Below, piece after piece: positions 13,307 to 54,589 of a DNA stretch of 64,000 nt; the stretch's first letter is position 1, and each line of letters starts with the position of its first letter. The stretch comes from Ferrimonas futtsuensis DSM 18154 (lineage in GTDB: Bacteria > Pseudomonadota > Gammaproteobacteria > Enterobacterales > Shewanellaceae). The stretch lies in NCBI RefSeq assembly GCF_000422645.1, contig NZ_AUGL01000008.1, positions 62,001 to 126,000 on the forward strand, in the 5' to 3' direction. The translations under genes and the position numbers were made by a program. The notes under the pieces were generated by a model. The model was not told the DNA's origin. It ran no database searches and saw only the letters and a program-made list of their open reading frames with translations.

Positions 13307-13609
13307 ATGTTTAAGACTTTGGTTAAGGCAGCCAGCACGGCGATTCTGGCTCTGGGCATGGCTGCGACGGCGCACGCGGCTCAGCTGCACAGCGGCGAAG
13401 TGGTGGAGACCATGAACGCCGGCGGTTACACCTATGTGCAGATTAAGGAAGAGGGCAAACTGGTTTGGGCCGCTGCGCCGGAGACCAAGGTGAAAAAGGG
13501 TGACAAGGTGGAGTTCGATGAGCAGATGAACCTGCCCAGCTTCGAGAGTAAGAGCCTGAAGCGCACCTTCTCTCCGATCATTTTCGCCGGCAAGATTGTG
13601 GTCAAGTAA
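13307..13609 (+). CDS. NrfJ-like small secreted protein
   Basis: This 100-residue protein has a Sec signal peptide (cleavage near AHA-AQL) and a mature part beginning SGEVVETMNAGGYTYVQI, followed by KLVWAAAPETKVKKGD. That pattern matches the NrfJ-related family found near nitrite-reduction genes in epsilon- and gammaproteobacteria. I chose the second ATG at 13307 because AAGGG lies six bases before it, while the first ATG at 13301 directly abuts AAGGG. No nrf genes are nearby; nap genes lie 3 kb away. Its biochemical role is not established. Confidence 0.72.
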   Translation: MFKTLVKAASTAILALGMAATAHAAQLHSGEVVETMNAGGYTYVQIKEEGKLVWAAAPETKVKKGDKVEFDEQMNLPSFESKSLKRTFSPIIFAGKIVVK

Positions 13610-13624
13610 GGCCAGACAGGCGGT

Positions 13625-13653
13625 AAAAAGCGGGGTCCTCTGGGACCCCGTTT
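13625..13653 (+). terminator. Terminator between the NrfJ-like gene and the oxidoreductase gene
   Basis: CGGGGTCC and GGACCCCG form a perfect stem with a four-base loop, flanked by AAAAAG on the left and TTTCTG on the right. It can serve the convergent genes on both strands. Confidence 0.8.
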
Positions 13654-13672
13654 CTGTTTGTGCTGCGCCAGT

Positions 13673-14896
13673 CTAGGCGCGGCGCTGGCGGAAGGCGTGG
13701 GCGCCGAGACGCCTGACGGTGCCCGCCACTGCCAGCCAGGCAGACAGATTGGGTTTGGGCGCCTTGCCATGGCCCATGCGTTCCAGCTGGAACTCATACC
13801 AGGTGATCCCCAGCATCGCCATGGCATCCACCCCTTTAAAGCCTGTGGTGGGTTCTTTGAAGCGAATCTCAAAGTCTGCATCGGCCATGGCACGGTTGGG
13901 CAGATCCGGCATCACCGACAGCGGCCGCGCCAGCCCCACCATGTCCACGGCGCCACTGGCCAGGGCCTGGTTCATCCCCCGGCTGCTGCGAAACCCTCCG
14001 GTGACCACCAGGGGTACAGAGACGCGGCGACGCACTTGCTCGGCGTATTCCAGGAAGTAGGCCTCTCTTGCCCGTGTCGAGGCTTTGCGGTTACCGGAGA
14101 TCATCGCCGGCGCCTCGTAGGTGCCGCCGGAGATCTCAATCAGGTTGATCCCCTCTGCTTCCAGGGCCTCGACCACCGCCATGGACTCCGCTTCGCTGAA
14201 GCCATCCTTCTGAAAGTCGGCGGAGTTCAGTTTGATGCCAACAGGGTAGTCATCGCCGACCTGGGCACGAATGGCCCGGTAGACCTCGAGCACGAAGCGC
14301 ATCCTTTTTGAGGCATCGCCCCCCCAATCGTCTTCTCGCTGATTGTGACGAGGAGAGAGGAACTGGCTTACCAGGTAGCCGTGTGCGCCGTGGATCTGCA
14401 CGCCATCGAAACCCGTCTCTTTGGCCAGTCGGGCCGACCTAGCAAAGGCGCCGATGGTCTGAACAATCTCATCGTCGGTCATCGCCCTTGGGGTATTGAA
14501 GGATTTCTCCAGACCGCCGCCCAGGGGAATGGCAGAGGGCGCCAGAGGTTCCTTGCTGAGCATGGCGGGGATCTGCTTGCCCGGATGGTTCAGTTGCATC
14601 CAGATCTGACTGCCGTTGCTCCTGCCTGCGTCGGCCCAGGCGCGAAAGGCGCTCAGGTCACTGTGGTCGTCCAGCACCACGTTGGCCGGTTCGCCCAGGG
14701 CGGTTCTGTCCACCATCACGTTGCCGGTGACGGAGAGGCCGATGCCGCCGTCGGCCCAGGTGCGATACAGCCGGGGCAGGGCGGTGGTGGGGTTGTGATT
14801 GCGATCGCCCAATTGCTCGCTCATGGCGGATTTGAACAGGCGGTTGCTGAACTGGACCTCTGGAGTCAGTTGCAATGGGGTGGCGATATCAGTCAT
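13673..14896 (-). CDS. Old Yellow Enzyme family NADH:flavin oxidoreductase
   Basis: This FMN-dependent ene-reductase-type enzyme has 407 residues and a TIM-barrel pattern. It contains QIHGAHGYLVSQFLSPRHNQR, the conserved His/Tyr-containing active-site and FMN segment of the NADH-oxidase branch, and VVTGGFRS near the phosphate-binding end. Physiological substrates are usually unsaturated aldehydes, ketones or nitro compounds. It lies directly downstream of a TetR gene, and a copy of the shared operator lies 14 bases before its start. The ATG at 14896 has AGGAG six bases upstream. Confidence 0.88.
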   Translation of the reverse strand: MTDIATPLQLTPEVQFSNRLFKSAMSEQLGDRNHNPTTALPRLYRTWADGGIGLSVTGNVMVDRTALGEPANVVLDDHSDLSAFRAWADAGRSNGSQIWMQLNHPGKQIPAMLSKEPLAPSAIPLGGGLEKSFNTPRAMTDDEIVQTIGAFARSARLAKETGFDGVQIHGAHGYLVSQFLSPRHNQREDDWGGDASKRMRFVLEVYRAIRAQVGDDYPVGIKLNSADFQKDGFSEAESMAVVEALEAEGINLIEISGGTYEAPAMISGNRKASTRAREAYFLEYAEQVRRRVSVPLVVTGGFRSSRGMNQALASGAVDMVGLARPLSVMPDLPNRAMADADFEIRFKEPTTGFKGVDAMAMLGITWYEFQLERMGHGKAPKPNLSAWLAVAGTVRRLGAHAFRQRRA

Positions 14897-40278: not shown

Positions 40279-43200
40279 ATGAGTCAAGAGGCGTTTCGAC
40301 TGCGTCGCATCATCATCATCGACAGTTTCTGGAAGGGAAAGGTCAATGAGATCGATTTCGACGGCCACACCCAGCTCGAGGGAACCAACGGCGCCGGCAA
40401 AACCTCACTGATGAGGCTGTTGCCCCTGTTCTACGGCATGCGTCCCGGCGACATCGTCTCCAAGGTGGATCAGGCGAAGAACTTCGTCGATTACTACCTG
40501 CCGCGGGAATCCAGCATGCTGGTGTACGAATATGAGCGCGTGGAAGCCTACCAACACCATATCTGCTGTATGGTCGCCAGCAGCACCTCGGGTCGCACCA
40601 TCCAATATAAGTTGTTTGATGCCCCCTACCAGCAGGACCACTTCATCGGCCCGGATCATCGCCCCTACAAGATGGCGGAGATCGAGCGTAACTATGGCCG
40701 CAACTGCTTCAAGTCCAACTATCTGAACGTCGCCAAGTACCGCCAGGTGATTCAAAACCTGAGGGAGGGGCGCACCAGCAGTGACGTACGCGAGCTGCAG
40801 CGCCGTTTTGCCTTCAGTCAGAATCCCATGCCCCATGTGGATAAGGTGGTCAATGGCACCATCGAGAAGAACCTGGATTTCGATGCGGTAAAGAAGATGC
40901 TGGTGGCGATCACCGCCGACTATCTGGCTCGGGGTCAGGCAGGGGATCACCGCGAGCCGATGCAGCTCAACAAGGATGAGATTGGCAGCTGGCTGTCGGA
41001 CATTCAGGCCAGTCGTGAAGTCCATGGTATCTCAGAGAAGATTGCCCGCTGGCAGGGCGAGTTCAGCGAACTGGAGCAGCATCTGAATCAGCTCAGTCAT
41101 CTGTATGCGCTGCTGAAAACCCAGCAGATCGAGCTGGATGAGCAGCAGCAGCAGCAGGGCGACGCCATCAAGGTGATTCGGGACAGCCTTAAGACGCTCA
41201 AAGCGGATTACAACCGACAGCGTGATGAGCTGCAGGAGCAGCTGACCACGGCCCGCGATGATCTCAAGGCCAAGCAGCAGGAGTGCGACCGCCTGGATGA
41301 TCAGAAAGCGGATTTTGATGACGACGATGCCGCCTCCTATCAGTTGAAAGCGGATGAGAAGCACCGCTTGACCGCCGAGTTGCAGGACGTCGAACAGATC
41401 CTCTCCAGCCTCGAAGGGGACGTCGCCAAAATCGCCGACAAGTATCGCGATCTGCTGCACAAGACCGAGCTTCAGCTCTCGAAAGGGGAGGGGGAGATCA
41501 ACGCCCGGCTCTCCAGCATTCGCGAGAAAGCCAGCGAGCGTCTCAGCGAGATCGATGCAGGCTATCAGCAGAAGCGCCGTCAACTGGAGCAGGCTCAGGA
41601 CAGCCGGGCCCTGGAGCTGAAAGAGCAGCTGATGACCGAACAGCATAAGCTGAGGATCAACCGCGACAGCCGCGCCAACCCCCAATCGGATCCTGAGATT
41701 GAGCTCGCCCTGCAGCAATCCCGTCAGCAACTGAGCGAAGCGCAGTCCCATCGCAACGAACACCTGATGGCCCTGGCGCAGATCGCCAAGCACCTGGGTG
41801 AGCTTGAGCGTCAGCGGGATCACCAACTGTCCACCCGTGCCGCCGAGCATAAGCGTCTGCAAGAGTTGCAAGCTCAGCGAGACACCCTGTCACTGCAGCT
41901 GAATCCCAACCCTGGTTCCCTGCAGCAGTTTTTGGCCGAGCAGAGCGAAGTGGGTGAGTGGAAGCAGACCATAGGCTGTCTGCTCTCTCCGCAGCTGCTG
42001 GCGCGCACCGATCTGAACCCAAGCTGGAGTGGCGAGGGGCTCGAGAGCCTCTATGGCGTGCGTCTGGACCTGGCGCCCCTGCAGCACAACAACCCCCTGG
42101 CTCGCAACGAAGCTCAGCTGAAAGAGCAGTTGGCGGAGTTGGACCAGCAGGTGGAAGCTCAGAAGCAGCTTAATGAGCAGCAAGACCAGTTGCTCAAGGA
42201 GATGGGCAGCACCATTGCCGAACAGCAGCAGAAGCAATCGGCGGCTCACCAGCAGGAAGGGCGGTTTGCCAGTCAAATAGATCAGCTGCAACAGCAGCTT
42301 GAGCGTCAGCAGCGGCTGCGCGACGACAGTGTGAAGCAGAAGCTGGCGGAGCTCGACCAGGAAGCGGAGCAACTGCGCAAACGCATTACCCAGCTCGAGC
42401 ATCAGCAAGCGGAGCAAGTGGCGCAGGCTCAGGAGCAGCAGCACGAGCTGCACAACCTCTCCATGGAAGCCCGGGCGGACGTGGAAACTGAGCGCGACAG
42501 CCAGATGGAGACCCTGAGTGAGCAACTGCTCACTCTGCAGGAAACCTGCGCCGAGCGCCGCAAAGATTACAAGCGCCAGCAGAAGCAGGCTCTGGAGCAG
42601 GTGGATCCCGATGGCGAGATTGACCGTCGTCACCAGCAGCGCAAACAGCTGAACGCCAAGCTGATGCGTTGCACCGAGTTTCAGCAGAAAGCCAACGATT
42701 ACCGCTTCTTCCTTGAGCAGCAGTTCTGTCACCGCGATCAGCTGGGCCAGCAACTGATGGACCTGCAGCAGCGGGTGTCACAGCTGGACAATACCCAGAG
42801 CAAACTGAAAGCGGACTTCGACAGTCACTACGGCAAGCAGGATAACGACCTGGGCAAGCTGAAGGAGAAGCAGGAGCGTACCCTGGAGCTGCTGGACCAC
42901 ATCGGTAGGGCGAAGACCAGTTGTGAAGCCCTGGAACTGGACGCGGCCATCGACCCCAACCTGCCGGTGTATCAGGCTCAGCTGCTGCCGGAATTCGTTA
43001 AGCAAAATCAGCAAAAATTCAGCCAGTTGGAGAAGAGTCTCAACCGTGAGATCACCAACTTCTCCAGCACCCTGCGAACCAAGCATGGCAAGAGCAGCCT
43101 GTATGAGTCCTGGGTGAAACTGGTGGCGGACAACGACCACCATCAGGGCTGTGAGGCGGTACTCAAGTATCGCGACCCCATCGGCGACCTGCTGGCCAGC

Positions 43201-43989
43201 GCCGGTCAGCTCAAGGCTTCCACCAGCCTGCTGATTCAAACCAATGCGCAGATGATCAATGAGTTCTACCAGCACTTGGAGAATTTCGACCGCCGCATCA
43301 AAGCCGTGGGGCGCCGCCTGTCTGAGCGGGTCACCAAGCTGGCTCAATTTGAGGCCTTTGCCGAGATCAGCGTGGGTACCGTCACCAAACTGGATCAGCT
43401 CGAATACTGGAGCCCACTGCAGAGCTTCTCTGAGCGCTACCTAATGTGCAAAGACAAGCTGCAAGACATCAACAGTGACATCCCGGAAGAGCTTATCGAA
43501 GCGATGCAGTCTCTGGCCCGGGTACTCCCTGCAGAGGGGGTGCAGCTCGAGCACAACGACCTGTTCGATCTTGAGTTTGTCATCACCGAAAAGGGCCAGG
43601 TGAAACGGGCCCGCAATGCCAGACAGCTGAAGAAGGTGAGCTCCACCGGCCTCTCCTACCTGGCCATGTTGTCTCTGTTCGCCGGCCTGCTGGCGATGCT
43701 CAGAGGCGACAGCAAGCACCCCAGTTCCATTATCCTGCCGGTGGATGAGCTGGGCGAGCTGGCGGCGGAGAACATCAAGCTGCTGCTGACCATGTTCGAT
43801 GACAACGCCATTCAGATTCTGTCCGCCTCTCCGGCGACCGACCGTCAGGTACTGGCCCTGTACAAGAACCACTACAAACTCAAAGACAGCAAGATCTATC
43901 AGGCCTCGGTGCCCATGTCCAAGCTGGAACAGCTGATGGCGTCCCGCGCCGCGGCCAAGCAAACTCAAGAGGCGGCTACTCATGTTTAA
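40279..43989 (+). CDS. SMC-like coiled-coil ATPase, DUF3584 type (condensin-like defence subunit)
   Basis: The 1236-residue protein has SMC architecture. A Walker A site lies at residues 35-42 (GTNGAGKT) and a YLP motif at 73-75; GKT plus YLP is the hallmark I recall for DUF3584. Long Gln/Glu-rich coiled coils flank a hinge-like break near 548-605 (EWKQTIGCLLSP to LYGVRLDL). A signature-like SSTGLSYLAML begins at 1121, and Walker B LPVDE ends at 1157. It probably forms the DNA-loop-extruding motor of a Wadjet/MksB-like complex. The next gene overlaps it by eight bases. Confidence 0.85.
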   Translation: MSQEAFRLRRIIIIDSFWKGKVNEIDFDGHTQLEGTNGAGKTSLMRLLPLFYGMRPGDIVSKVDQAKNFVDYYLPRESSMLVYEYERVEAYQHHICCMVASSTSGRTIQYKLFDAPYQQDHFIGPDHRPYKMAEIERNYGRNCFKSNYLNVAKYRQVIQNLREGRTSSDVRELQRRFAFSQNPMPHVDKVVNGTIEKNLDFDAVKKMLVAITADYLARGQAGDHREPMQLNKDEIGSWLSDIQASREVHGISEKIARWQGEFSELEQHLNQLSHLYALLKTQQIELDEQQQQQGDAIKVIRDSLKTLKADYNRQRDELQEQLTTARDDLKAKQQECDRLDDQKADFDDDDAASYQLKADEKHRLTAELQDVEQILSSLEGDVAKIADKYRDLLHKTELQLSKGEGEINARLSSIREKASERLSEIDAGYQQKRRQLEQAQDSRALELKEQLMTEQHKLRINRDSRANPQSDPEIELALQQSRQQLSEAQSHRNEHLMALAQIAKHLGELERQRDHQLSTRAAEHKRLQELQAQRDTLSLQLNPNPGSLQQFLAEQSEVGEWKQTIGCLLSPQLLARTDLNPSWSGEGLESLYGVRLDLAPLQHNNPLARNEAQLKEQLAELDQQVEAQKQLNEQQDQLLKEMGSTIAEQQQKQSAAHQQEGRFASQIDQLQQQLERQQRLRDDSVKQKLAELDQEAEQLRKRITQLEHQQAEQVAQAQEQQHELHNLSMEARADVETERDSQMETLSEQLLTLQETCAERRKDYKRQQKQALEQVDPDGEIDRRHQQRKQLNAKLMRCTEFQQKANDYRFFLEQQFCHRDQLGQQLMDLQQRVSQLDNTQSKLKADFDSHYGKQDNDLGKLKEKQERTLELLDHIGRAKTSCEALELDAAIDPNLPVYQAQLLPEFVKQNQQKFSQLEKSLNREITNFSSTLRTKHGKSSLYESWVKLVADNDHHQGCEAVLKYRDPIGDLLASAGQLKASTSLLIQTNAQMINEFYQHLENFDRRIKAVGRRLSERVTKLAQFEAFAEISVGTVTKLDQLEYWSPLQSFSERYLMCKDKLQDINSDIPEELIEAMQSLARVLPAEGVQLEHNDLFDLEFVITEKGQVKRARNARQLKKVSSTGLSYLAMLSLFAGLLAMLRGDSKHPSSIILPVDELGELAAENIKLLLTMFDDNAIQILSASPATDRQVLALYKNHYKLKDSKIYQASVPMSKLEQLMASRAAAKQTQEAATHV

Positions 43990-44608
43990 GCACACAGTGG
44001 AAAAACTTCTGGCCGGTGACGTGATCTGCCAAACCGCCTTTGCTGACGAGTATGAGTACCTGCAGTCAGAAGCCAATCGACTCAAGGTGGATGAGTTTCT
44101 GCAGCAGCTTGAGCGCAGCCTCACCCACTTTGAGACCGCCGATGCCTTCTACTGCACCTACAACAGCGTCGATGACAGCAACCGCAAGAAGATCAGTGAG
44201 CTGTTCAGCAGCATGCGCAGCCATTTCCGGCCCTTGGTGGAGTGGCTGGATATGCTGCTGCAGGCCACCGGCAGTGATGCGCCTCTGAGAGCCAAAGACA
44301 GCATCAAGTTTACCTCTCTGCTGGAAGCCTTTGAGCACGACCAGACTCTGGCGGAGCAGTTGCGTCGCCTCACCAACATGGTGCCCTTTAAAACCTCGCG
44401 GGTGGAGCTTCGGGATCAGTTGGGTACCGTGTTCCAGCGCCTGGAGGAGATGGGGTACCTGGTGCGCCACGCCCAGGGCAGCAACAGCTACTATGCGACG
44501 GCTCGTTTCGATCTTATCTACCTGCTGATTGAGTTTCTCAACGACAGTGAGAAGCTGGAACTGCCGGAAATACAGCCTGAAGATCCACAGGCGGAGCTGC
44601 TGCTGTAA
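43982..44608 (+). CDS. Small partner subunit of the SMC-like complex (kite/MksE-like)
   Basis: The 208-residue protein has no signal peptide and is mostly helical with a C-terminal winged-helix pattern (ELRDQLGTVFQRLEEMGYLVRH, then YYATARFDLIYLLIEFL). In size, predicted fold and position it fits the kite subunit (MukE/MksE/JetB) that binds the kleisin. The assignment rests on context more than on sequence similarity. It overlaps the ATPase gene by eight bases and shares one base with the next start. Confidence 0.68.
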   Translation: MFKHTVEKLLAGDVICQTAFADEYEYLQSEANRLKVDEFLQQLERSLTHFETADAFYCTYNSVDDSNRKKISELFSSMRSHFRPLVEWLDMLLQATGSDAPLRAKDSIKFTSLLEAFEHDQTLAEQLRRLTNMVPFKTSRVELRDQLGTVFQRLEEMGYLVRHAQGSNSYYATARFDLIYLLIEFLNDSEKLELPEIQPEDPQAELLL

Positions 44609-45849
44609 TGGGCCTCTACGACCGCGAACAAGTCGCCAAACTGCTGCGGCAAATTGGCCAGGCCGATGAGCTGCTCAGTGCCGCCTATGTGGATGGCAGC
44701 ATCAGCAGTCGCAGTGACAACGACAGCCAGCTGCGAGCGCTGCACAAAGCCAAGCTGCTGCGCCCGGAGGAGGACCTCGGCGACTATCGTCTGACGTCGG
44801 ATCTCAAGCGCCTGCTCAATAAGCTGCTGCGCCATCAGAGCAGCTACCGGCAGCTGACCGACATGGGCAAGGTGATGGACGCCCTCGAGGACGCCACCCA
44901 CGATTATCGCAGTTCCTATGAAACCGATCAGTGGGACGACGCCGAGCACTATCTGGACCAGTTTGATGATCTGGTGTTCGAGGCCAGAGACAGCCTCAAC
45001 AACAGTCTGGACAACATGCACTACGCCATCTCCAGCCAGTTCGGTTTTGTGGCGACACTGAATGCCAAGGTGCGCGAGAACGAAAAGGCGCTGGCCTACG
45101 CCCAGAAGCTGCTCAATGAGCTGCAGCAGATCGACCCTGAGATCTGTTATGACTGGATCTTCGACTCTGCGCCCACCGAGTTCGCCCGCAAGGTTACCGG
45201 CTTCGTACGCTGGTACCGCGACGCCCTCAAGCGGCTGGCCCACGTGATCGACAAGATGCGCCAGAGCCTGTTCCGGCTGCGTCGTCAGGTGAAACAAGCC
45301 AATCAGCTTAAGGGGATGGCCCGCTTCCTTCGTCAGCACCCTGAGTATCAACTGTCGGAAGAGCTGCCCTTCAGCGAAACCCTGCCTCAGGCACTGAGAC
45401 TGTCGCCGCCGCTCACCACTGGGGGCCACCCCGATGTGCGCAGCAGCGCCCAGGAGGAGTCCCTGGTTGCCATTGTTCAGCACCTGCGCAAGCTCAGCCA
45501 GGCGGCGCCGGAAGTGCGGGGTCGAGAGGGTGTCGAGGTGGAATCTGACGCGTTGGAGATCCTGGGTTACATCAGTGACTGGGCCCTGGATGAGGTGGAG
45601 AGTTACTTCGAGCAATCCCTCGAGACCTCACTGAGCGCCCTCGACTACTGGCAGAAGCGCCAGAGCCACTGGATGGAGCAGGGCTGGCAACTGGAGCCAG
45701 AACCCTGGATTGAGTTGGTGTTTGGCTACTACTGCAGCCTGAGCATCGACCTGCAGCGCAGCCTCGATCTTGAGCTGGAAGAGGCGTTGGTCGATGGCAC
45801 CAACAACAACTTTACCTACAGCAACATCACCGTGGGTTTGCGTTCATGA
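44608..45849 (+). CDS. Kleisin-like subunit of the SMC-like complex (MksF/JetA-like)
   Basis: The 413-residue protein is helical, with long coiled segments (about 65-230) between a smaller N-terminal domain (MGLYDREQVAKLLRQIGQ) and a C-terminal domain (PWIELVFGYYCSLSIDLQ). This matches the kleisin layout that bridges SMC heads. I recognise no catalytic motif. The ATG overlaps the previous stop (TAATG) and its end overlaps the next gene by four bases (ATGA), so all four proteins are probably made in fixed ratios. Confidence 0.66.
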   Translation: MGLYDREQVAKLLRQIGQADELLSAAYVDGSISSRSDNDSQLRALHKAKLLRPEEDLGDYRLTSDLKRLLNKLLRHQSSYRQLTDMGKVMDALEDATHDYRSSYETDQWDDAEHYLDQFDDLVFEARDSLNNSLDNMHYAISSQFGFVATLNAKVRENEKALAYAQKLLNELQQIDPEICYDWIFDSAPTEFARKVTGFVRWYRDALKRLAHVIDKMRQSLFRLRRQVKQANQLKGMARFLRQHPEYQLSEELPFSETLPQALRLSPPLTTGGHPDVRSSAQEESLVAIVQHLRKLSQAAPEVRGREGVEVESDALEILGYISDWALDEVESYFEQSLETSLSALDYWQKRQSHWMEQGWQLEPEPWIELVFGYYCSLSIDLQRSLDLELEEALVDGTNNNFTYSNITVGLRS

Positions 45850-46514
45850 GTGACAGCCGCCCGGATCGCATCACCCAGGCGGGACGCTTTAATGATGAGA
45901 AGCGCGGCAGCGCACCGGTTAAGGCGGACATGGTGCTGGTGAATGCCCTGGGCAGTTTACAGCTCAACGGGGAGCGTTACCCCGTGCTCCCCTTTGCCGG
46001 AGCTGGAAGCTTGATTGATCAGCGTTTTATCGACTCGGTGGAACACCCGGCTCTGGTATTGGTGGAGAACCTGTCGGTGATGACCGCCTTGCCCAGGTTG
46101 TTGCTGCCGGAGCCCCTGAGCGATGCACTCTTCCTCTATCGCGGGGACATGAAGGACACCTCCAACTCGGCGGCCAGCAAGGCGTTTGCGCGATTGTCCT
46201 GCCCGCTTAAAGTGGTGTTTGCGGATTTCGACCCCAAGGGGGTGGAGATTGCCCTGACGTGCGGGGCTGAGCAGGCGTTGTTGCCCGAGCAGCAGCAGTG
46301 GCCGCTTATCTGTGATGCCGGCTGGAGATCCCTCGAGGGGCCGGAGCAGCGCTGGCAGAACCAAAGGGATGCCAGAGTTGGCCTGGGCGAGCGGGCGGCA
46401 AAACCCGAGTGGGTAGATACAGCGCTGTCCACCATGGGCCGCTTCGGCCAGACCCGTACCCAAGAGCACCTTATTGCCCACCAAGTGCCACTGGCACTCT
46501 TTCCCCTCTCTTAG
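45846..46514 (+). CDS. Minimal Toprim protein of the SMC-like operon (JetD/MksG C-terminal-like)
   Basis: The 222-residue protein has a Toprim pattern: Glu 74 in ALVLVENLSVM and the Asp pair 127/129 in VVFADFDPKGVEIAL, with FLYRGD between them. This matches the nuclease half of JetD/MksG, which cleaves plasmid DNA in Wadjet systems. JetD proteins are usually near 380 residues with an N-terminal DNA-binding part. Here only about 70 residues precede the Toprim Glu. It is the last gene of the operon; no terminator is obvious in 46515-46734. Confidence 0.7.
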   Translation: MSDSRPDRITQAGRFNDEKRGSAPVKADMVLVNALGSLQLNGERYPVLPFAGAGSLIDQRFIDSVEHPALVLVENLSVMTALPRLLLPEPLSDALFLYRGDMKDTSNSAASKAFARLSCPLKVVFADFDPKGVEIALTCGAEQALLPEQQQWPLICDAGWRSLEGPEQRWQNQRDARVGLGERAAKPEWVDTALSTMGRFGQTRTQEHLIAHQVPLALFPLS

Positions 46515-51158: not shown

Positions 51159-52652
51159 ATGAGAGTTGAATTAGAACACCTAAAAGGAATATCAAGCTTA
51201 AAGTTTGATATTCCTAACCAAGGTCTATGGCTTTTAACTGGTTTGAATGGCTCTGGAAAAACCAGCTTACTGGCAGCATTGTTCCGAATAAAGAAATCTA
51301 GGGCTTTTCAGGATTACTATAAAACAACCGCCACACAAAGTAGGTTGGATACATTTAGGCAATCTAAAGTGAGATATATTATTGATGGTGAGGAGGTTAC
51401 TTATACTTATGGAGGGAAAAGGTGGCCTCCAAAACCGAAACGTAACTCATCACTTCTTAGAAGGTTTCCATTTTCCAGTACTCAGTTTATTGAAGCCAAT
51501 GGAAGTAGAGTTGAACCATATGGCGATGAAATCATTCCGAGAAGAATTAATGCCGCGAACGATGTGATTCGAGATTTTATGTCATCTGTATTAGGAGATT
51601 TGAAGTGGAATGAACTTAAATATGTGAACACAAGAAGAGGAGTGGGTAATCAAGCTTATCTATTACCTTACAGAGCGGGTAGAGAGCTACATTATTACTC
51701 AGAAAAGAACTTTAGTCTAGGAGAGCTTTGCATATTGAAACTAGCAGAAAAGTTATCTATGTCACAAGATAACAGTCTAGTTCTCATAGATGAAATAGAA
51801 ATGGCTTTACATCCTCAGGCACAGGTTAGATTGTTACATAAACTAGAGCGTGTTGCAAATGATAAAAGCTTGACAGTAATATTTTCCACACATTCTTCAA
51901 CACTAATTAAAAATGTGGACAGAAATAAAATAATCTTGCTTTCCGATAATGGAACTCACGTGGATGTTAAAAGGCAAGTATATCCTGCTCATGTCCTTGG
52001 AGAAATTGCATTTGACGAAGAATTAAACACGGATTTTGTTTTCTTTGTTGAAGATGAGCAAGCAAAGGTTCTGCTAGAACAAATGTGCGGTAAGTTTTAT
52101 GAGGTGTCTGATGTATTTAAGCCGATGTTTAAAGTTGTTCCCGTAGGTGGATATTATCAAGTTTTAAAAATGCTTGACAGATCTAGCCAGATACTCCCGG
52201 GTCATGTTCGAAGGTATGCATTCCTTGATGATGATGTTCGAACAGAGGCAATTCCAAATGCACGAAGACAAGGTACCAGAACAGTAACTGATCTTTATGA
52301 TAGATTAGATGCCAAAGTTAATTTCTTACCGTGCACTCCGGAAGTCGGCTTGGTAGACTTTATTGAGTCACAAGCTAACTTAAATATGAGCTTTTGCGGG
52401 GTGGAAGTGAGAATTGGTAATTATGTGTTATCTCGGGAATATCAAGCCATTAATGGAGACAACGCAAGACAGGTAGCAAAAAATAAGTTAAATGCAATTG
52501 TAGATTATATCCAGGATCGCTCAGGAGATGAAAGGGTTTCAATTCATCGCAATTTATATAGAGGCTATATTGATAACCACTACCGCAATATAGGGAGTCT
52601 GATGGGGTTACTTGGTCCAGTTTTTAATTCAAGGAATAATCGTAATCACTAG
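51159..52652 (+). CDS. OLD-family ATPase with C-terminal Toprim nuclease domain
   Basis: The 497-residue protein has an ABC-type ATPase followed by a Toprim domain. Walker A is residues 28-35 (GLNGSGKT), a signature FSLGE lies at 185-189, Walker B LVLIDE at 207-212, and the H-loop His at 245. Toprim residues are Glu 298 in FFVEDEQAK and Asp 357/359 in FLDDDV. OLD-family proteins are anti-phage nucleases, alone or with partners such as GajB. Here no helicase follows; two unfamiliar genes do. Its AT-rich codon use differs sharply from flanking genes. Confidence 0.86.
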
Positions 52653-52751
52653 CCCACTAAGTAAGCTTTTCTTCGATTTTAGATTGCCAGTTTCATTTGG
52701 CTATTTTTAGTCTTTTGTGCAGAAAAGATATAATTCAAAATTGAGTGTAAT

Positions 52752-53771
52752 ATGAAAAAAAACTACAATATAGAATTTTGGAACTTTGTTTGTCACTTTG
52801 GTGATTTAAAACTTTTGGACAGATATGTACAATTTGTTCATCCTGCATTTATGAATGAGCATATTAGGAATTATGGCGACTCCAGATGGCTTTTTAATGG
52901 GGTTCGTTTAATTGAGGTGACAATTAATAATGAAAGGCTTCCTTTTATATATGGTAGGATAGTAAAAGATACGATTTTAGAAAGAGAGCAGGTTCTTAAA
53001 GGTGATGAGCTAATTGATGATAATCTTCGTATTCAAAATTCACCCTCATCTATATTCATTCTCTCGTTAAAAGAACATCGTATGTTTTTCATAAAGGAGC
53101 AAAAGGACTCTCCAACAATGGAAAACTTTAAAGCAACAATTGAAAAGTTTATAAATAATGAACGTAGAACTTATATAAACGATGAATATGAATATCAAAA
53201 GAAGCTCAGGCAAGAGAGAGGTGGAAACTATAAAGTTACGAAAAAATGTGACTTAGAAGCTTCGTTTCCAAAACCTGACATAGAGGTAATCCCTTTATCT
53301 TCTGATGCAGATATTGATGAATTTATCAGAGGTATGAAGTCTATAGACAAGTTATCTTTGAAGCTAGTGATGCCGAATAGTGAGTATGATTGTAATGAGT
53401 TCTTTAAGTCTTGGAGAGAAAAGAATAAAAAGCTTGGCCAATCTAAGTCCAAAGTGGAATTTTCAAAGAGTAAGAAAACACTACCTCATGAAGAAGTTGC
53501 AGATCTTTCGAAAGAAGCAGTGAAAGATGGAAATATCTTAATCAAAATGACTGGTAAAGATATTAATGATGATAAATTGATTGGTACACATGAAGAGTTT
53601 AAACTAACTAGAACTATAGGTGATATAAATGATTCACCACGAATATTGGTCAAAGAAACGTACGAGTCATTTTTGGAGCTTATTAGGGACGGAGTTGTTA
53701 GAGCCCCTAGGATTTCAGATGGAAGTAGCATCAAGGAGAAGCTTGAATTCATCATTAATATGATTAAGTAG
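52752..53771 (+). CDS. Unrecognised 339-residue protein in the OLD island
   Basis: I do not recognise this protein. It begins MKKNYNIEFWNFVCHFGD. The N-terminal 130 residues look like a mixed alpha/beta domain (RLIEVTINNERLPFIYGRIVK, then IFILSLKEHRMFFIKEQ). A Lys/Glu-rich, probably helical middle follows, with a C-terminal domain (GDINDSPRILVKETYESFLEL). There is no signal peptide or membrane segment, and no catalytic motif is evident. It lies 99 bases after the OLD gene and eight bases before the membrane-protein gene, with the same AT-rich codon use. Confidence 0.7.
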   Translation: MKKNYNIEFWNFVCHFGDLKLLDRYVQFVHPAFMNEHIRNYGDSRWLFNGVRLIEVTINNERLPFIYGRIVKDTILEREQVLKGDELIDDNLRIQNSPSSIFILSLKEHRMFFIKEQKDSPTMENFKATIEKFINNERRTYINDEYEYQKKLRQERGGNYKVTKKCDLEASFPKPDIEVIPLSSDADIDEFIRGMKSIDKLSLKLVMPNSEYDCNEFFKSWREKNKKLGQSKSKVEFSKSKKTLPHEEVADLSKEAVKDGNILIKMTGKDINDDKLIGTHEEFKLTRTIGDINDSPRILVKETYESFLELIRDGVVRAPRISDGSSIKEKLEFIINMIK

Positions 53772-53779
53772 GTGCACTA

Positions 53780-54589
53780 ATGACAGATTCAAATAGCGAT
53801 TTATCTGAGTTGACTAGTGAGAGTAACTTTTGGAAACTTTACATTATTATACGAAGAATAAAGAGCGGTACTGATACTAAAGTTATATCCCTCCTTTCTT
53901 TCATTTTGATTTTTTTGTTAAACGTCAATACGGAAGGGGATGTTGTATATCTCTCAGATGAGATCCAAAAGGTTTCGGGGAATATAATTGGTTGGTCGGT
54001 TTCGATTGTGGGTTTTATTCTTGCTGGATATTCAATATATTCGACCTTGTCAGATAAGGAATTTCAGTTATCAATGTCTAAATTCCATGATAAGAAAAAT
54101 GGAGTTAGTCATTTAAAAAGTAGTCATTGCGTATTTATTAAAGTTGTTGTTGATATAATATCTCTAACACTTATAACGTACCTTTACTCTCTATTCATGA
54201 AAACAGATATTCCAATGCAAGCTTCAAATGTTTTTGTTTTTGGAGTGTCGGTCTACAAAGTTTATTTGTATTTTACACTATCACTTCTGCAGTCATTTTT
54301 TGTTCTTATTTTATTGATGTGTAAGTCATTCATATACAATGTGTATCATAGCATTATGACATCTATACGCTGGTATGGAGAGAATAAACCTGAAGAAGAG
54401 CCTGCAATAGTAGTTGAGAGAGTGGCTTTGACTTTTCAAGAGGAAATAATAGTTGAGTTGATGACAAATGGCAGATCGGAATGGATTCGCTTAGAGGATA
54501 TAGATGATAGCGAGTGTACTATTTATATGACGAAAGAGGTTTTGAATCAAATAAAATATATGAAGAGTAGTAAGGCACAAAGACAGTAA
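53780..54589 (+). CDS. Four-helix membrane protein in the OLD island
   Basis: The 269-residue protein has four hydrophobic stretches near residues 36-52, 68-88, 122-142 and 154-185, and a charged C-terminal tail of about 75 residues (EEIIVELMTNGRSEWIRL and following) that would face the cytoplasm. I recognise no named family. Membrane proteins paired with a nuclease or sensor often act as abortive-infection effectors, but that is inference from context. It starts eight bases after the preceding gene and is probably co-transcribed. Confidence 0.7.
   Translation: MTDSNSDLSELTSESNFWKLYIIIRRIKSGTDTKVISLLSFILIFLLNVNTEGDVVYLSDEIQKVSGNIIGWSVSIVGFILAGYSIYSTLSDKEFQLSMSKFHDKKNGVSHLKSSHCVFIKVVVDIISLTLITYLYSLFMKTDIPMQASNVFVFGVSVYKVYLYFTLSLLQSFFVLILLMCKSFIYNVYHSIMTSIRWYGENKPEEEPAIVVERVALTFQEEIIVELMTNGRSEWIRLEDIDDSECTIYMTKEVLNQIKYMKSSKAQRQ

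Follow-up and report, generated by a model that had tools for sequence, protein, structure and literature searches.

A predicted SMC, kite, kleisin-like and Toprim operon with a DUF3584-type motor in Ferrimonas futtsuensis, related to the Mks and Wadjet systems

We studied a four-gene operon of Ferrimonas futtsuensis DSM 18154 that is predicted to encode a condensin-like complex related to the Mks and Wadjet systems. It lies in a 64,000-nucleotide stretch of contig NZ_AUGL01000008.1 (positions 62,001 to 126,000), the whole of which is referred to here as the window. The four open reading frames (ORFs) are all on the + strand within 40279-46514 and, according to the ORF list, overlap by 8, 1 and 4 bases. 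Coordinates and sizes were as claimed in an initial annotation made from the sequence alone. The genes and their conserved residues are as follows.

40279 to 43989, + strand: SMC-type coiled-coil ATPase of the DUF3584 family, 1236 residues; PF12128, 848 bits
40381 to 40404, + strand: Walker A motif GTNGAGKT, SMC residues 35-42; invariant-column alignment and motif search
43639 to 43662, + strand: ABC signature SSTGLSYL, SMC residues 1121-1128; invariant-column alignment and motif search
43744 to 43749, + strand: Walker B Asp-Glu pair, SMC residues D1156 and E1157; invariant-column alignment and motif search
43982 to 44608, + strand: kite subunit of the MksE family, 208 residues; PF21980, 38.3 bits
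44608 to 45849, + strand: kleisin-like subunit, 413 residues; predicted model for which MukF chains rank first
45846 to 46514, + strand: Toprim nuclease-like subunit, DUF7281, 222 residues; PF23947, 106.6 bits
46065 to 46067, + strand: Toprim glutamate E74, invariant in 27 of 27 sequences, window included
46224 to 46232, + strand: Toprim DxD motif, D127 and D129, invariant in 27 of 27 sequences, window included

The match of the SMC motor to PF12128 spans the entire profile (1-1191 of 1191) and far exceeds the cut-off of 31 bits. The GKT and YLP motifs read in this protein at the outset were recovered as GTNGAGKT at residue 35 and YLPR at residue 73, and DELG was found at 1156. Twenty columns are invariant among 17 aligned SMCs, window included, amongst them G35, N37, G40, K41, S1122, G1124, D1156 and E1157. 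From general knowledge of SMC ATPases, we take E1157 to be the catalytic base. Judged by this alignment, the ATPase site of the window SMC is intact. Regular expressions for the motifs were too strict for divergent SMCs (12 of 60 passed all three) and were used for the window motifs only. Against PADLOC-DB 2.0.0 the window SMC matched only JetC2, at 17.1 bits over 49 residues, and some of its relatives matched the JetC1, JetC2 or JetC3 models (best E 1.2e-7). The DUF3584-type motor had initially been counted as a departure from Wadjet. By itself it is not one, as PADLOC labels its own JetC models 'DUF3584 domain', weak though their match to the window SMC is.

The cut-off for the MksE match of the kite subunit is 27 bits. 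Amongst the kite relatives, window included, 20 of 22 matched MksE and 5 of 22 matched DUF4194 (E <= 0.01), which is the PADLOC label of JetB1. The window kite itself matched no PADLOC Jet model. MukB (PF04310) and MukF (PF03882) gave no match among the four proteins at E <= 1, nor in the window genome. Of the profile searches proposed in the initial annotation, those with PF12128 and MksE thus exceeded their cut-offs, those for MukB and MukF were negative and the Jet models returned only the short JetC2 stretch.

No Pfam family cut-off was reached by the 413-residue protein, with only scattered weak matches among 27 sequences. Its AlphaFold model, built on a 10-sequence alignment, has a mean predicted local distance difference test score (pLDDT) of 65.5 and a predicted template modelling score (pTM) of 0.37. 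The model starts with a winged-helix-like region of helices and a beta hairpin, continues through long helices and a disordered linker at approximately 249-321, and ends in helices and a hairpin that are again winged-helix-like. In Foldseek, six of the top seven rows were chains of MukBEF or MukEF entries, MukF by length (9gm7_C, E 6e-4; 7nz2_C1, E 1e-3), with template modelling (TM) scores of only 0.16-0.21 in the first two rows. A second structure alignment also placed MukF first, at a Z of 12.6 (root-mean-square deviation 10.7 over 235 residues), which is close to what the tool gives as chance for helical models. Since 14-3-3, syntaxin and STAT proteins also rank high and unrelated helical proteins reach Z 12.3, the MukF matches are counted as support, not proof, of a kleisin identity. 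Aligned with a chain of the Wadjet-II entry 9qe1, the model gave Z 9.8 (root-mean-square deviation 3.3 over 140 residues). None of 27 kleisins matched the PADLOC JetA models, and the kleisins of L017 and L039 are weakly similar to that of the window (E 0.004 and 0.66, respectively).

For the Toprim subunit the DUF7281 cut-off is 27 bits. At 222 residues it is shorter than its relatives, which have 272-334 residues once a 541-residue frame with a spurious start (L118) is set aside. It lacks about 75 N-terminal residues that are present in 25 of the 26 other aligned sequences, the exception being Ferrimonas senticii, whose Toprim is short too. In JetD the N-terminal end is a CAP-type domain, according to an excerpt of PMC10586767. 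The Toprim model (pLDDT 63.7, pTM 0.66; 5-sequence alignment) was closest to C. glutamicum MksG in the second structure alignment, at a Z of 5.8 that falls under the tool's caution line of 8. The first seven rows were all MksG, topoisomerase VI-A or Spo11 (Z 5.8 to 4.5) and the first unrelated row scored 4.0. Foldseek gave no significant match for this model, with topoisomerase VI-A second at E 0.48, and the window Toprim matched no JetD model in PADLOC. Several full-length relatives did match the JetD1, JetD2 or JetD3 models, with a best E of 6e-9. PDB sequence searches, made with the SMC and Toprim singly and with profiles of all four proteins, returned nothing convincing, MksG appearing for the Toprim only at E 0.31. 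Taken together, the Pfam MksE match, the MukF-ranked kleisin model and the MksG-closest Toprim model agree with the proposal that SMC, kite, kleisin-like and Toprim proteins akin to Mks and Wadjet are encoded here.

Amongst the matches listed, the nearest named relative is F. senticii; at least nine loci came from a scan of genome contigs, hence the number of named relatives is small. F. senticii keeps all four genes, with identities of 76% (SMC), 87% (kite), 83% (kleisin) and 63% (Toprim). The ratio of nonsynonymous to synonymous substitution rates (dN/dS) between the two species is 0.08-0.09 for SMC, kite and kleisin and 0.12 for Toprim, at a dS of 1.2-2.5 that is close to saturation. By this comparison, all four window genes are under purifying selection.

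The order SMC-kite-kleisin was conserved in 45 of 45 loci read, confirming an arrangement unlike that of jetABCD. Three of these loci (L106, L118 and L014) were completed by hand, and the labels of L014, L015, L017, L038 and L039 rest partly on position, as their own proteins were among the queries. By contrast with the core, the Toprim gene is optional. It was found downstream in 27 of the 45 loci: in 25 it immediately follows the core, in L132 one small gene intervenes and in L116 the distance is about 5 kb. In the other 18 it was missing, and tblastn with 27 Toprims gave a single row, a kleisin stretch found via a mislabelled query. With a Toprim family profile, 22 Toprim-less loci were negative and 5 of 5 controls, four of which belong to the profile, were recovered. 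The same 247 genomes of the order were used in every search. DUF3584 was over cut-off in 91 of them and DUF7281 in 55, of which 53 also had DUF3584. By profile, Toprim was missing in 38 of the 91 DUF3584 genomes and in 7 of 19 genomes of the window's family. The loci of 18 of these 38 genomes were read, and Toprim was missing in all 18. The profile-based absences are nevertheless upper bounds because divergent members escape DUF7281. In G171, position and alignment point to a Toprim-like fourth gene, yet the profile gives no match. The expected co-occurrence of all four genes thus holds for SMC, kite and kleisin but not for Toprim.

Sixty SMC head regions were placed in a tree, 38 from Toprim-bearing and 22 from Toprim-less loci, and Toprim presence changes at least seven times on it. 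L145 was left out (same genome as L106), and L154 and L155, whose SMC genes are interrupted, are each represented by the larger piece alone. The deep branches are mostly Toprim-bearing and several branches are long. This topology suggests losses, and we assign no direction to the changes. Core genes remain open, with no stops, in five Toprim-less pairs; of their 15 gene comparisons 10 were saturated, and the remaining 5 gave dN/dS values of 0.03-0.13. Where present, the Toprim evolves quickly. Its dN exceeded that of the core 12-14-fold, 5-6-fold and 5-12-fold in three close Toprim-bearing pairs and 3-5-fold in a distant fourth, for which the Toprim start is uncertain. Values were obtained for 15 of the 16 gene comparisons in Toprim-bearing pairs, the exception being the kleisin of L118/L142.

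A few loci stand apart from this pattern. A kleisin-Toprim fusion in G349 was considered and rejected, the two genes being in different frames. In Thiocystis violacea (L149), SMC, kite and kleisin are accompanied by a short ORF, at about 13513-13734, whose likeness to a Toprim gene, judged by eye, is confined to the start of that gene; the family profile was negative there. L023 (G249:C1:1604478-1604884) has, apart from its intact operon, an additional DUF7281 copy that is broken into two pieces, one of which contains a stop. L018, L019, L021 and L022 encode SMC-like proteins of 917-956 residues, compared with 1236 in the window. The genes beside them are of kite and kleisin size, and DUF7281 matches there are weak. 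In PADLOC, seven of the proteins of L019 and L021 gave only weak Jet matches (<= 20.5 bits).

We also checked the genomes of the order for other condensins. SMC was found in 120 (E <= 1e-30) and MukB in 94 (E <= 1e-100). At E <= 0.001 MukB matched 103 genomes, from which G321, G322, G396, G403, G417, G424, G463, G473 and G483 were dropped; of these, G396, G417, G463 and G473 lay above the Pfam cut-off by less than 3 bits. The DUF3584 count leaves out G384 and G482, and the DUF7281 count keeps 55 of 58 matches, those over cut-off. Two candidates per genome were scored in the SMC search and all candidates in the ScpA search. DUF3584 and MukB occur together in 3 genomes compared with 34.6 expected (Fisher p 1e-20). 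This p value overstates the case, as the genomes are not independent of one another and presence runs along family lines. DUF3584 was present in 19/19 genomes of the window's family (f1) and likewise in f180 (17/17), f178 (12/12), f173 (11/11) and f185 (9/9), the totals for these last four being reconstructed from the order of genome handles. It was over cut-off in 7 of 274 genomes in a sample of the class and in 20 of 378 in a sample of the phylum, all 20 of which belong to the window's class. Four f174 genomes have DUF3584 without SMC, ScpA or MukB, and one of the four has Toprim by profile.

The f180 genomes (genus code g231, n=17) were taken as Psychromonas. All 17 have DUF3584 and 16 have Toprim by profile. 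No SMC was found in them, and no ScpA, for which 8 of 8 SMC-bearing genomes in the same search were positive. MukF was likewise absent (4 of 4 MukB-bearing controls positive), and no MukB was found at E <= 1e-100, with one weak match in G396 at 23.8 bits against a cut-off of 23. In a search of 25 genomes for canonical MksE, 0 of 17 Psychromonas genomes exceeded the cut-off and 4 of 4 control genomes scored at least 63.8 bits. This search speaks only against canonical MksE, because the DUF3584-linked kites of the window genome and of Psychromonas were missed by it. Apart from the DUF3584 complex, no condensin could thus be recognised in the 17 Psychromonas genomes sampled. Weak MksE-like matches (17.6-19.6 bits) were seen at G422:C49:136879 and G435:C1:633457, both in f180. 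They lie on another contig from the DUF3584 locus in G422 and away from it in G435, and mark a possible second Mks or Wadjet system.

In Shewanella, as which genus code g223 was taken, Toprim was found by profile in 10 of 17 genomes and was missing in 7. With or without Toprim, the operon lies near the same downstream sodium:dicarboxylate symporter gene in 17 of 17 loci. One of these, in G453 (L113), holds a whole operon of the window's divergent subfamily, the other 16 being of another subfamily. From the sequences, it looks as if the whole operon had been swapped in place at this fixed site.

Copies were also found on mobile elements. In a plasmid collection, 26 records had an SMC match at E <= 1e-10. 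Five regions were opened (L153-L157, from Aromatoleum, Enterobacter, Vibrio and Rhodoferax records) and in all of them genes for a kleisin and a Toprim, along with one of kite size, come after the SMC gene. The Enterobacter record is of the IncC type and carries the operon beside a TnsD gene, its SMC interrupted by an insertion sequence. Two of the five operons have an interrupted SMC gene and one of these also has a split kleisin. The V. parahaemolyticus record, at 939 kb, may be a chromosome. A complete operon is present in the jumbo phage Dfl-JY45 of Dolichospermum (209 kb; L152, PP438435.1:86907-93262), with products of 1233, 205, 411 and 272 residues annotated as hypothetical. A phage-borne condensin-nuclease of this kind could attack plasmids or rival phages, or could fold phage DNA. 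The kleisin search found no phage record besides Dfl-JY45, and scans of viral contigs yielded 332 stretches with the SMC alignment and 5 with the phage kleisin, none of which was confirmed.

Within the window, the operon is preceded by genes for a LysR regulator, DoxX and a glutathione S-transferase-type protein. Downstream come a gene for a haloacid dehalogenase (HAD) hydrolase, one whose product has no Pfam match and one for a member of the alpha-amylase family. These three downstream genes also occur together in G301, another Ferrimonas genome, where the operon is not beside them. The F. senticii operon is set among other genes (within 8 kb). An AAA ATPase of 497 residues, whose best PADLOC match is ATPase-Toprim_I-B at 127 bits, and two genes without PADLOC match occupy 51159-54589, about 4.6 kb downstream of the operon, and are a possible defence cassette. 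The nearest neighbours of the operon are not defence genes.

On balance we favour, with moderate confidence, the view that the operon encodes a condensin that extrudes loops, with a Toprim subunit that acts to restrict small circular DNA and a core that also does chromosome work. By analogy with MukBEF and Wadjet, a pair of SMC motors linked through the kleisin would engage DNA and extrude it into loops. Once a small circle had no more DNA to offer, the motor would stall, and the stalled complex would activate a Toprim dimer, resulting in a cut circle, whilst a large chromosome would be spared. The short Toprim of the window and F. senticii lineage would dock without its N-terminal domain. The distribution suggests that the SMC-kite-kleisin core alone organises the chromosome in several families, with Toprim adding the restriction of small circular DNA. 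The motor alone would then earn its keep, most simply in chromosome folding, and the cutter would be under different, faster selection. The initial annotation had left open whether the complex is anti-plasmid or chromosome-handling; the comparative data suggest a core for chromosome work with a variable nuclease as an add-on. Because the window genome also encodes SMC (G000:C14) and ScpA (G000:C20), the plasmid-restriction role is likelier to dominate there and the operon may be mainly defensive. More tentatively, and with rather more doubt than belief, we propose that in Psychromonas, and perhaps in the four f174 genomes, this Wadjet-like complex is the sole condensin, both folding the chromosome and cutting small circular DNA, and that elsewhere in the order, in Shewanella and others, the core has repeatedly shed the nuclease.

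Several observations weigh against a core with chromosomal duties joined to a plasmid nuclease. SMC is also present in 68 of the 91 DUF3584 genomes, and in 24 of 247 genomes neither SMC nor MukB nor DUF3584 was found, so that a missing SMC is no proof of replacement by DUF3584. The exclusion between DUF3584 and MukB, following families as it does, could be clade history. Its location is not shared between the window, F. senticii and G301, as would be expected if the operon were a mobile defence cassette. The low kleisin and Toprim structure scores given above, and the lack of a JetD match for the window Toprim, count on the same side. Alternatively, the operon could be only an anti-plasmid or anti-phage system, with Toprim-less copies either decaying or using another nuclease. 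This explanation, which we consider unlikely though well worth weighing, accommodates the Toprim-bearing operons in plasmid records (one beside a TnsD transposition gene) and in a 209-kb phage, the fast evolution of Toprim, the whole-operon swap at one fixed Shewanella site (G453), the lack of a fixed place in Ferrimonas and the defence-like ATPase downstream of the window operon. It does not readily explain why every sampled genome of whole families has DUF3584 (19/19 in f1 and all of f180, f178, f173 and f185), why core genes stay open at low dN/dS in the five Toprim-less pairs, or why the complex is the sole recognisable condensin in 17 Psychromonas genomes.

At the other extreme, the complex could be purely a chromosome condensin, in which Toprim is a topoisomerase-like or regulatory partner, acting for example in decatenation or break repair, rather than a plasmid nuclease. 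The same distribution data speak for it, topoisomerase VI-A is among the close matches of the Toprim model along with MksG, and none of the 27 sequences has lost the acidic residues. We nonetheless hold this to be improbable: the absence of Toprim by profile from 38 of 91 genomes would be odd for a housekeeping enzyme, Toprim relatives match JetD models, operon copies occur in plasmid records and a phage, and the window Toprim has no N-terminal domain at all. The short length of the window Toprim (222 versus 272-334 residues) and its lack of a JetD match could also mean that the window copy is degenerate and its Toprim a decaying gene. F. senticii, however, has the same short form, 63% identical, in an open frame with a dN/dS of 0.12, and the acidic residues are intact, so that this last explanation is mostly refuted already and very improbable.

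The favoured combination of chromosomal core and optional nuclease is open to experiment. The same core occurs with and without nuclease even within one genus, Shewanella, at one chromosomal site in 17 of 17 loci. With both states in Shewanella, and with no other recognised condensin in Psychromonas, the question can be tested by removing one gene. If the core has indeed shed its nuclease repeatedly, this would be a natural series leading from a plasmid restriction machine to a chromosome condensin, a course that has been suggested, though not demonstrated, for how MukBEF and MksBEF arose. The operon also bears on two Pfam families still of 'unknown function' (DUF3584 and DUF7281), whose window members are not recognised as Wadjet by PADLOC models.

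MksBEF was reportedly named by Petrushenko et al. in 2011, in a study that may already include some of these proteins. For archaeal plasmids, a published table lists a chromosome segregation ATPase with DUF3584 among its domains, and DUF3584 also appears in another paper as a weak phage match. In the titles and abstract openings searched, no operon of DUF3584, MksE, kleisin and DUF7281 was described, no paper was found under DUF7281 and none combined Psychromonas and MukB.

Wadjet operons have the order jetA-jetB-jetC-jetD, that is kleisin-kite-SMC-Toprim. The window operon shares the same four kinds of subunit with Wadjet types I-III, its kleisin and Toprim folds coming from moderate models. 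Among its relatives, some Toprims match JetD1/2/3, some SMCs JetC1/2/3 and 5 of 22 kites DUF4194. It differs from Wadjet in its SMC-kite-kleisin order and in that the window kite, kleisin and Toprim have no Jet match, the SMC having only the 17.1-bit JetC2 stretch. Compared with JetD, the acidic residues are common to 27 of 27 aligned Toprims and the N-terminal domain is present in 25 of 27, but not in the window or F. senticii. Excerpted text of PMC12647877 reports that N. vireti Wadjet-II cleaves circular DNA.

With MksBEF and MksBEFG of Pseudomonas and Corynebacterium, the window operon has in common an SMC ATPase, an MksE kite and a Toprim model nearest to C. glutamicum MksG, and it may share a MukF-like kleisin, MukF chains ranking first for the kleisin model at low TM-scores. 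Its SMC-kite-kleisin-Toprim order differs from mksFEBG and its DUF3584 motor, at 1236 residues, from the 1111-residue C. glutamicum MksB (both as given in an excerpt of PMC10123090). Its Toprim is short and without the N-terminal domain, and Toprim is often missing in its relatives. The likeness to MukBEF lies in the kleisin model, whose best matches are MukF chains, and in the rarity of DUF3584 and MukB in one genome; unlike MukBEF, it has no PF04310 or PF03882 match and does have a Toprim gene. SMC-ScpAB shares the general SMC architecture and differs in that it coexists with the operon in the window genome. Because two Wadjet features (gene order and Jet models) and one MksFEBG feature (gene order) fail, we file the operon, on its sequence features, as a separate DUF3584 branch of the MksBEF/Wadjet group.

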